NCBI GenBank assembly: GCA_945921365.1
Contig: CAMEKL010000001.1
Location: 1 to 20,732 of the forward strand
Reading direction: 5' to 3'
DNA: 20,732 nucleotides
From: an uncultured Bacillota bacterium
Lineage (GTDB): Bacteria; Bacillota; Clostridia; Christensenellales; UBA1242
In this document: one piece after another, positions 1,888 through 4,755 of the stretch
Layout of the letters: each line of letters starts with the position of its first letter
Position numbering within the stretch: position 1 is the first letter of the stretch
Position numbers and translations under genes: made by a program
Notes under the pieces: model-generated
The model's database searches: none
Told to the model about the DNA's origin: nothing
Seen by the model: the letters and a program-made list of their open reading frames with translations, nothing else

Positions 1888-3576
1888 ATGTATATTTTTC
1901 CTGTTCTAAATGGAAATGCGTGCATAAAAAACAAAAGCACTGCAATTTCTAAAATTGATGAAAGTGGCAAAATTGAAGTTTATGGAGTTAGAGATAAGTT
2001 TAGATATGACAATATCTCAATGCCATTCTTTAGAGGTATTGCATATTTTATTTTTGGTCTTTACCTTTTTTTTAAAAGCATGATAACCGCACAAGAAGTT
2101 TTTTTAAAAGAAAAAAAAGTTGAAGAGAAAAGAAAAATAAAAATCAGCGAAAGCAGACTTTTATCTATTATAGCCCTTAGCTGTGGAATTATTTTTGGAA
2201 GTCTTGCTTTTGTTCTTATTCCTTATTTTACTTTTTTCTATCTTGGAAAACTTGGCTATAACTATTTTTTAATTTGTCTTACCGCTGCTGGACTTAGAAT
2301 TTTAACATTCGCTTTAATTCTTCTTGTGTTAAGATTTATCCCATCTTTTAAACAGTTTTATAGACATAATGCAAGTTGCAATCTTGTTTTTAAAGAAGGA
2401 GAAAACTATCATCTTTCAACAAATTTTCTAACTTTTGTTTTAACCTCTTTCTTTATTCTCCTTTTTGTGTTATCATTTACTGCACTTAATATAAACTATG
2501 GGCTTAGAATTCTTCTAAATCTTTCTATAACTTTTACAACTGTTGGAATTGTGTTTGAAATTTTAAAAGCTATTGAAAAAAATAATGGAATTCTTTGTAG
2601 CATTTTTGTTAAACCAATTTCTTTTTTGGTTACAGCAAAACCTAGTTTAACAGAAAAAAACATTGCTAACAGCGTTGTGGAAGAGGTTAATATGATGGAA
2701 GAAAATCGCGAGAGAATTTTAGATGAAATTTCTGGAAAAGAAATTCCAATGAGTGTTGTTATTTCAGAAGTTAAAGAAAAGCTTGCAAAGGCAGGAATTG
2801 AATCAGCAAGTGAAAGTGAATGGCTTATTGCAGAGTGTCTTGGAAAAAACAGAAACGACATTAGGCTTAGAACAACAGTTTCTAAAGAAGAGTATAAAAA
2901 AATTAACAGTGTAACAGCAAAACGAGAAAAACATATTCCATTAACAAAAATTTTCAATAAAGCAAATTTTTATGGATACGATTTTTATATTGATAAAAAT
3001 GTTCTTTCTCCAAGACCAGAAACAGAGCTTTTAGTTGAGGAAGTTATAAAAGAGGCAAAAGAAAGAAATAATCCAAAAACAAAAATTTTAGATTTATGCA
3101 CTGGAAGTGGAGCAATTGCAACAGTTCTTGCAAAAAAAACAAATGCAAAGATTTTTGCTTCTGATATTTCAGAAAGCGCACTTTTAATTGCTAAGAAAAA
3201 TTCAAAAACTCATGAAGCACAAGTTAAATTTATAAATTCCGACATCTTTAAAAATTTTAAAAAAGAAAAATTTGATATCATTGTTTCAAATCCACCGTAT
3301 ATTCCATCAAAGGATATCTTAGCACTTGAAGATGAAGTTAAAAATAATGACCCTATTTTAGCACTTGATGGTGGTGAAGATGGGTTGATGTTTTATAGGG
3401 AAATAATTAAAGAGGCGCCAAACTTTCTTCTTCCAAATGGCATGATTTTTTTAGAAATCGGCATAAATCAAAGTAAAAGTGTTAAAAAACTCTTGCAAAA
3501 AGATTTTGAAGATATTAAAATAAAGAAAGATTATTCAAAAATAGATAGAATTGTCATTGCAAAATTAAAAGGATAA
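1888..3576 (+). CDS. prmC: DUF1385 membrane domain fused to PrmC, the release-factor glutamine methyltransferase
   Basis: PrmC methylates the glutamine of the GGQ motif in RF1 and RF2. The C-terminal half, from about residue 285, is a complete PrmC: a helical N-terminal domain, the SAM-binding motif DLCTGSG (402-408) and the catalytic, glutamine-binding NPPY (468-471). Residues 1 to about 280 resemble DUF1385, a multi-pass membrane family often encoded beside prmC in clostridia. There are about five hydrophobic segments (about 43-65, 93-118, 124-152, 179-200 and 206-230). The usual DUF1385 signatures (GGQAVIEGVMMR, YHGAEHK, HPRCGTSF) are eroded, for example YRHNASCNLVF in place of the histidine region. 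Most family pairs are separate genes; here they form one continuous 562-codon frame. The start lacks a clear Shine-Dalgarno and is somewhat uncertain. prfA fragments follow at once. PrmC identity is firm; the DUF1385 match is from memory of the family pattern. Confidence 0.88.
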   Translation: MYIFPVLNGNACIKNKSTAISKIDESGKIEVYGVRDKFRYDNISMPFFRGIAYFIFGLYLFFKSMITAQEVFLKEKKVEEKRKIKISESRLLSIIALSCGIIFGSLAFVLIPYFTFFYLGKLGYNYFLICLTAAGLRILTFALILLVLRFIPSFKQFYRHNASCNLVFKEGENYHLSTNFLTFVLTSFFILLFVLSFTALNINYGLRILLNLSITFTTVGIVFEILKAIEKNNGILCSIFVKPISFLVTAKPSLTEKNIANSVVEEVNMMEENRERILDEISGKEIPMSVVISEVKEKLAKAGIESASESEWLIAECLGKNRNDIRLRTTVSKEEYKKINSVTAKREKHIPLTKIFNKANFYGYDFYIDKNVLSPRPETELLVEEVIKEAKERNNPKTKILDLCTGSGAIATVLAKKTNAKIFASDISESALLIAKKNSKTHEAQVKFINSDIFKNFKKEKFDIIVSNPPYIPSKDILALEDEVKNNDPILALDGGEDGLMFYREIIKEAPNFLLPNGMIFLEIGINQSKSVKKLLQKDFEDIKIKKDYSKIDRIVIAKLKG

Positions 3577-3580
3577 AAAC

Positions 3581-3676
3581 ATGCTTGAAAAAACAATTGC
3601 TTTTAAAAACAGATTTGATGAACTTACAGAACTTATTTCTAAGCCAGAGATAATTGCAGAGTCTGAGACCACATAA
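3581..3676 (+). CDS. prfA: Detached N-terminus of peptide chain release factor 1 (residues 1-31), separate mini-ORF
   Basis: This 31-codon frame begins 4 nt after the prmC stop, with an AAAGGA ribosome binding site at 3568-3573 that overlaps that stop. Its peptide begins [18 protein letters not shown] and aligns without gaps to the start of Bacillus RF1 (MLDRLKSIEERYEKLNEL), including the following S-x-P-E-[IV]-[IV] turn. It ends at TAA 3674-3676. The remainder of RF1 resumes in another frame (+2) about 110 bp later. The ATG and ribosome binding site are intact, so the mini-ORF could still be translated, either as a helix that pairs with the RF1 core or simply as a relic that couples translation to the next ATG. 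Confidence 0.8.
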
Positions 3677-3783
3677 AAGGAGAAAAGAATATGAAATACG
3701 TTATTTTTATTGTTATTTTTATCGTTTCATGGCTGGTTGGTGTGCTTGGGTGGGCACAAATAATTGGTAGCCTTCAGAACATT
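3665..3783 (+). other. Insertion interrupting prfA: stop codon, new ribosome binding site, new ATG and a membrane helix
   Basis: Aligned to RF1 of Bacillus, the mini-ORF covers residues 1-31 and the second frame resumes at about residue 35 (SKEQSD there, IKERSG here). The DNA between is therefore extra, replacing only about three codons. It holds TAA 3674, AGGAG 3678-3682 with an ideal 8-nt spacer, ATG 3691 and about 30 codons of strongly hydrophobic sequence. Its part 3737-3780 uses codons rare in the neighbours (CTG, GGG, CAG) and is roughly half G+C, against about 30% around it. The exact ends are uncertain. No terminal repeats typical of an insertion sequence were found. Confidence 0.7.
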
Positions 3784-4755
3784 AAAGAAAGAAGTGGGCT
3801 TGAAAGTTTAGCAGAGGCTCATGACGAACTTGTTAAACTTACAAAAGAAGAAGAAGATATACATAAAACTCTTGAAACAGAAAAAGACGAAGAAATTCTT
3901 GAACTTTTTAAAGAAGAGGAAAAGGAAAATAAAAGAAAAATTGAAGAACTTTGTGAAAAAATTAAAATACTTCTTCTTCCAAAAGATGAAAATGATGACA
4001 GCAACGTCATTATTGAAATAAGACCAGGTGTTGGTGGAGAAGAATCTGCCCTTTTTGGTGCTGTTCTTTTTAAAATGTATTGTAGATATGCAGAAAGAAA
4101 TAGATGGAATGTTGAAATTGTGGATTATTCTGAAACAGAAATTGGCGGAATTAAGGAATGTTCTTTCACAATTGCTGGAAAAGGTGCTTATTCAAAACTT
4201 AAGTATGAAAGTGGTGTTCATCGTGTTCAACGTGTTCCAGAAACAGAATCTCAAGGTAGAGTTCACACTTCAACAGCAACAGTTGCTGTTCTTCCAGAAG
4301 TTGAAGATGTTGACTTTGAGATTTTAGACAAAGATTTAAGAATAGACACATATAGAAGCAGTGGTGCAGGCGGTCAACATATCAATAAAACAGATTCTGC
4401 AATTAGAATTACTCACATTCCAACTGGAATTGTTGTTTCATGTCAAGACCAACGCTCTCAAACAAAAAATAAAGAAAAAGCGTTTGAAGTTTTAAAATCT
4501 AAATTATACAACTACTATAAAGGTCAAATAGATAAAGAATATTCTGAAAACAGAAAAAATCAAGTTGGAAATGCAGAACGCAGTGAGAGAATTAGAACAT
4601 ACAACTATCCACAAGGAAGAATAACGGACCACAGAATAAACTACACTGTTTACAACCTTGAAGACTTTTTAGATGGAAATATTGAAGATTTAATTGAAAA
4701 CTTGGCAATTGCAGACCAAAAAGAAAAGCTTGAAAAAGCATTAAATCAACAATAA
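3691..4755 (+). CDS. prfA: Peptide chain release factor 1 with a replaced, transmembrane N-terminus
   Basis: RF1 reads UAA and UAG in the ribosomal A site and triggers peptide release. From about residue 32 ([16 protein letters not shown]) the 354-residue protein follows RF1 closely. It has the RF1 tripeptide PET (183-185) of the PxT codon-reading type, not the SPF of RF2, the GGQ catalytic loop (227-229, [15 protein letters not shown]), and the conserved SQDQRSQ-like and RTYNFPQGR-like regions (here CQDQRSQ and RTYNYPQGR). Residues 1-31 ([20 protein letters not shown] then [11 protein letters not shown]) are not RF1; they form one transmembrane helix. The normal first 31 residues lie upstream in a separate mini-ORF. 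The AGGAG at 3678-3682 strongly supports the ATG at 3691. rpsF and one lipoprotein gene here end in TAG, so the cell needs a working RF1. RF1 identity is certain; membrane anchoring is inferred. Confidence 0.9.

Follow-up and report, generated by a model that had tools for sequence, protein, structure and literature searches.

An RF1 gene interrupted by a foreign-looking patch that resembles the beginning of a gene for a small membrane protein: natural recombination or assembly error

The window, by which we mean the whole 20,732-nucleotide stretch of DNA analyzed here, is contig C1 of a MAG (G000) that comprises 549,671 bases in 99 contigs and is 61% complete. In it the prfA gene, which encodes release factor 1 (RF1), is divided between two open reading frames in different frames, and the second of these begins with a hydrophobic helix (Table 1). 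The locus raises the question of whether a cell makes an RF1 that is anchored in the membrane, as the original prediction held, or whether the arrangement reflects an accident in one strain or in the assembly.

Table 1. Features of the split prfA gene and its upstream neighbors (window coordinates)
Feature	Position	Strand	Basis
NrdD, anaerobic ribonucleotide reductase, cut by contig start	2–1645	minus	381 bits over 326.35
DUF1385-PrmC (RF methyltransferase) fusion ORF, 562 aa, directly upstream of prfA	1888–3576	+	domain models
RF1 codons 1–26 (domain 1 helix 1), 5' part of prfA	3581–3658	+	mini-ORF compared with intact P0001
31-codon mini-ORF: RF1 1–26, insert codons ESETT and TAA	3581–3676	+	sequence
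Foreign-looking patch, 122 nt, replacing eight prfA codons (DQKEWKKL)	3659–3780	+	P0001, four congeners, donor family P0121–P0132, codon outlier
Shine-Dalgarno-like AGGAG, 8 nt before ATG 3691	3678–3682	+	sequence
354-aa fusion ORF: donor-type membrane helix and RF1 from about residue 35	3691–4755	+	TIGR00019
Hydrophobic helix, predicted transmembrane, limits approximate	3697–3768	+	KD19 maximum 2.66; low-confidence model helix 2–18
KERSGL codons, common to RF1 and donor relatives P0122/P0123; right joint probably in or beside them	3784–3801	+	protein comparison

The larger ORF is an RF1 by the models for the bacterial family (TIGR00019, NF001859; Pfam PCRF and RF-1), with scores above the cut-offs from residue 31. 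TIGR00019 gives 468 bits (cut-off 423.25) over residues 30–350 of the 354, the curated Pfam cut-offs are exceeded by PCRF (219.7 bits) and RF-1 (145.8 bits), and the family models match only from residue 30–31 onward. The GGQ peptide-release motif is present (GAGGQ in the translated ORF), its G227, G228 and Q229 being invariant in a 24-row alignment. Unlike other bacterial RF1 proteins, the fusion has no continuous domain 1 beginning with helix 1; a membrane helix stands in for the first 34 residues of RF1, and helix 1 is encoded in the separate ORF and frame. A class-I release factor family that lacks domain 1 altogether, RFH (prfH), is described in an excerpt of PMC1586002, but the fusion retains most of domain 1 (helix 2 shortened, helix 3 kept) and scores only 99 bits with the RFH model against 468 with that of RF1.

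The top RF1 relative, P0001, is intact and identical to the RF1 part of the fusion at 316 of 324 residues (98%), and the mini-ORF agrees with it at 25 of 28 aligned residues. In four congeners, too, the RF1 N-terminus is unbroken and reads ...KPEIIADQK(E/Q)WKKLVKERAGLE.... The sequence, these homologies and the intact relatives are direct observations, and on the assembled sequence a foreign segment appears to have taken the place of resident prfA DNA. P0001 and the congeners give an exchange of 122 nt for eight codons, rather than the roughly 110 bp for about three codons first proposed; the loss of these codons (24 nt) is deduced from the protein comparison with P0001. The mini-ORF, 31 residues long, does end in a TAA at 3674 as predicted, but it was taken for RF1 residues 1–31, and only residues 1–26 are RF1 while the last five codons belong to the insert. 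That the remainder of RF1 is read from ATG 3691 behind an AGGAG and through a strongly hydrophobic helix, and that rpsF ends in TAG, agree with the sequence.

Both ORFs are open and each has a ribosome-binding-like sequence, and the hydrophobic start is in frame with RF1 in the longer one. Within the first 60 residues the Kyte-Doolittle 19-residue maximum is 2.66 for the fusion ORF and −0.08 for intact P0001. The fold model of the fusion has a mean pLDDT of 69.9 and keeps helices at 37–63 and 67–95 as well as the later domains; residues 1–36 fall below 50, and a helix at 2–18 lies in this low-confidence part. Intact P0001 is modeled with a mean pLDDT of 83.1 and with block means of 84–90 where the fusion is below 50; it has a discrete helix 1 at 2–18 and a helix 2 at 28–67, so that in the fusion helix 1 is predicted to be lost and helix 2 shortened.

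The hydrophobic start has relatives of its own. A search with fusion residues 1–40 found four proteins of 81–85 aa, one of which (P0121, 85 aa) is identical to the fusion ORF at 30 of the first 35 residues; since this matches the start of a protein that itself has relatives, the hydrophobic stretch is not a chance run. P0122 is identical over residues 20–37 of the fusion, a run of 18 residues, and P0001 is identical at residues 32–38, so the two sources probably meet in this part of the ORF. Nine proteins came from a further search, P0121 again and P0131 from Butyrivibrio sp. M55 among them. Together these two-helix proteins (P0121–P0132, 81–85 aa) resemble the fusion at its start and differ from it in having a second helix and their own C-terminus, where RF1 follows instead; P0121, P0122 and P0124 had no match better than E 0.2 in Pfam or PHROGs. 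Read alongside this family, the 122-nt patch looks as though it takes in the last codons of one gene, a ribosome-binding site and the first part of a gene for a small membrane protein; its ESETT-stop would be the 3' end of the donor's upstream gene.

The family is sparsely distributed. It occurs in three of 391 genomes of the class at E 0.01, the MAG itself included, in one of 397 genomes within the family of G404, and in two of 79 genomes of a genus that we call Butyrivibrio-like because a protein of one member (G894) is letter for letter identical to P0131. It was not found beyond the source genome in a phylum sample of 398 genomes including that genome, nor in the rest of the order sample, 395 genomes (396 with its own; E 1e-5). 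In the Butyrivibrio-like genome the gene for this 84-aa two-helix membrane-type protein (L114:1498–1752, minus strand) has as near neighbors one ORF that carries transposase-type integrase domains and another with a CHC2 zinc finger (primase-type), surroundings that suggest a mobile island. In a second genome a 36-aa version begins in the same way (L111:269–379).

The composition of the insert also sets it apart. When 1384 overlapping windows of the genome are ranked by codon score, the insert ORF falls in the lowest 1.4%, and its GC content is raised without being extreme (7% of window segments are equal or higher). We considered other sources. As a copy from elsewhere in the MAG it is rejected, the best other match there being 16 bases (E 0.08), and as a copy shared with the congeners it is rejected too, the matches there being short and AT-rich (the best with E 9.5e-4 over 35 query bases). 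The 35-aa insert peptide was not found in the four congeners; in a search of 60 relatives nine genomes matched at E up to 1, namely its own and eight at E of at least 0.046, whose 27–45% identity we take as chance. A piece of a known phage or plasmid is rejected as well, with protein matches at E 2 or worse, none with P0121, and DNA matches at E 0.1 or worse. Viral contigs yielded no relative, and gave three short-motif matches inside proteins that, judged by eye, look otherwise unrelated. DNA searches found no donor DNA for the insert.

At the joints, homology is suggested on the right side, where KERSGL is shared in protein; no shared word is known on the left. At the right, P0122 reads NIKERSGLV where intact RF1 reads LVKERSGLE, so that six codons are held in common at the protein level and the right joint probably lies in or next to them. 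P0121, although closest to the fusion overall, has NLKSRG where the fusion has NIKERS, and because of this the true donor would be an unseen relative.

Could the arrangement be an adaptation? In favor of a functional two-part, membrane-anchored RF1 evolved under selection, with the 31-residue peptide completing domain 1 in trans, stand the two open ORFs with their ribosome-binding-like sequences and a helix 1 that is a discrete element of the intact model (H2–18). However, none of the relatives examined has it. The RF1 database search scored residues 1–120 and passed 644 proteins; among the best 120 of these 644, which are cluster representatives (with eight members behind P0001), none has the GWAQ insert motif or a hydrophobic N-terminus. 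The same holds for the related loci, where 0 of 43 scorable ones among the 69 scanned (L012–L080) have a hydrophobic RF1 start, and the four congeners are intact. RF1 was matched in 59 of 60 genomes searched, the source included; in the other 58 no match begins before residue 25. The codon use of the patch, moreover, is unadapted as well as foreign-looking. We therefore regard an evolved two-part RF1 as very improbable, and a conserved or evolved membrane-anchored RF1 is not supported. What stands of the original prediction is the interruption of RF1 and its membrane-type N-terminus; its membrane-anchored RF1 as an established form is not supported, since no listed RF1 or scored related locus shares that start and an intact RF1 that is 98% identical exists. 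The prediction also missed the likeness of the insert to the beginning of another gene. An exact-phrase search of one open-access library found no report of a membrane-bound or split RF1.

The alternative that programmed recoding (readthrough, frameshift or a ribosome hop across the insert) yields a full-length soluble RF1 has a precedent in RF2, for which an excerpt of PMC12421855 describes a programmed frameshift near the N-terminus. Here, however, readthrough of the TAA cannot rebuild RF1, because the mini-ORF and the fusion ORF do not share a frame and reading on past the TAA runs into further stops at 3692 and 3761, which disposes of stop readthrough as the route to a soluble form that had been suggested. 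Even a perfect hop would leave RF1 eight codons short, the RNA of the insert folds no better than its shuffles (z −0.71), and no Rfam match falls in 3400–4000. We find this explanation scarcely credible. Within its first 80 codons the fusion ORF has one further in-frame start, GTG 3742, which has no evident ribosome-binding site; with readthrough leading into the wrong frame, RF1 is therefore the 354-aa form if the sequence is real.

Whether it is real depends on weighing a natural event against an assembly or strain-mixture artefact, in which a coverage gap or a variant bubble within prfA would have been closed by the assembler with a read path from a donor organism of the same sample, perhaps through words that both have in common, the KERSGL codons for example, while prfA in the living cells is intact. 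Several observations argue for such an artefact or count against a real patch: the MAG is fragmented and incomplete, the gene struck is one that should be needed, P0001 is intact, one joint lies within a shared stretch, the closest donor relative differs at that joint, and nothing comparable recurs among the relatives examined, no fusion being found among the best 120 of 644 RF1 representatives (the eight cluster members behind P0001 apart). Chimeric prfA sequences do occur in such public data. The database RF1 P0003 agrees with P0002 at 171 of its first 172 residues and with P0001 at all of its last 191, the two parts being joined in a conserved block; it is either a natural recombinant or an assembly chimera.

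The MAG also contains another broken sense-strand gene. A screen for split genes compared about 212 kb of G000 with 400 kb of the congener G002; 138 ORFs of the former matched 121 of the latter, antisense shadows included, and eight pairs at six places were found. These places are prfA, its antisense shadow, three further antisense shadows, each of a gene that is open on the opposite strand (SMC, YlqF and IleS, which account for five of the eight pairs), and one real case, an RNA-methyltransferase-like gene on contig C18 (L136:2981–3780, minus strand) that has an internal deletion and a frameshift relative to G002 and gives RlmK/L- and RlmI-type matches below cut-off. This second lesion within the sampled part of the MAG likewise weighs on the side of an artefact.

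Against an artefact, the assembler would have had to err twice independently, at joints about 120 nt from each other, the left one without a known shared word, and by chance the outcome would have to pair a good ribosome-binding site with a start codon that leads in frame into RF1. Conversely, a real patch is favored by its two-sided nature and its resemblance to a nameable protein family that was not found in the rest of the 61%-complete G000 or in the 395 further genomes searched in the order, by the atypical codon use of the insert ORF and by the place of the right joint, probably in a hexapeptide that RF1 and donor relatives share. An in-frame start with a good Shine-Dalgarno sequence is what survival would need; it counts only in part, because a joint at KERSGL would itself set the frame. 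The most likely account is that the patch in prfA is a strain-specific accident, with assembly error almost as likely and reality slightly ahead. More specifically, we tentatively favor, at close to an even chance, that short-patch recombination put foreign DNA into prfA and left a truncated, probably membrane-tethered RF1; to the artefact we assign a probability that also approaches an even chance.

Short-patch double illegitimate recombination is a named type of recombination, although the name matched no paper in that open-access library, and a 2016 PNAS paper by Harms reportedly treats short foreign patches as an outcome of recombination. An excerpt of PMC3240628 describes short foreign patches as such an outcome. 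The prfA patch resembles this and homology-facilitated illegitimate recombination in that a small piece of foreign DNA takes the place of a small resident piece with one joint probably assisted by homology, and differs in that it is read from sequence alone and has an undefined left joint.

By such short-patch recombination, a scrap of DNA from another bacterium, with a Butyrivibrio-like source as the nearest lead, would have been patched into the prfA of this strain. The right end was probably anchored by the roughly six shared codons, the left would have joined with little or no homology, and eight codons would have been removed. With the patch would have come a stop, a ribosome-binding site and the first codons of a gene for a small membrane protein that read in frame into the remaining RF1. 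Host competence is possible: a ComEC-type domain (PF03772) occurs in all five genomes of the genus, but 10 of 14 control genomes, including E. coli, have it too, so it points to competence only weakly. We infer this recombination route, and likewise the expression, location and activity of the patched RF1. The cell would make a 31-residue fragment carrying domain-1 helix 1 and an RF1 that lacks helix 1 and bears one membrane helix. By the positive-inside rule, positive residues after the helix would favor the cytoplasmic side for RF1. Placed there, the tethered protein would keep its codon-reading and GGQ domains and may terminate at UAG and UAA with reduced efficiency.

A search for a second prfA, which had been proposed as a check, found none in the 61%-complete MAG; besides prfA and a weak overlapping match in another frame, the only hit is on C69, and this is prfB (503.6 bits over 370), the sole other release-factor match there. 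Sampling of 212 kb gave 152 ORFs with a stop and a length of 150 aa or more; their stops are 102 TAA, 32 TAG and 18 TGA. Some RF1 activity is needed, because 32 of the 152 end in TAG and only one prfA was found. In favor of a real patch, the excerpt of PMC1586002 treats RF1 domain 1 as functional yet non-essential and reports that truncated RF1 works in vivo, and our fold model keeps the later domains. On the other side, a reviewer's remarks in the same excerpt recall that RF1 is totally inactive on ribosomes without L11, the domain-1 contact, and mention slow growth without domain 1. That a natural patch made the cell's only RF1 split and membrane-tethered, with the lineage surviving and terminating at UAG from the membrane, seems to us rather unlikely.

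If real, the locus would be a natural test of how far RF1 domain 1 can be cut and of whether membrane tethering leaves a soluble translation factor able to function. It would also be a case in which a short piece of foreign DNA entered a gene that should be needed and the cell survived. If it is an artefact, it shows a MAG yielding a plausible new protein, and read support would be worth checking first.

Directly upstream of prfA, DUF1385 and PrmC are fused in a single ORF. The congener G002 has a similar open frame of 582 residues, so this fusion is probably not a local error.
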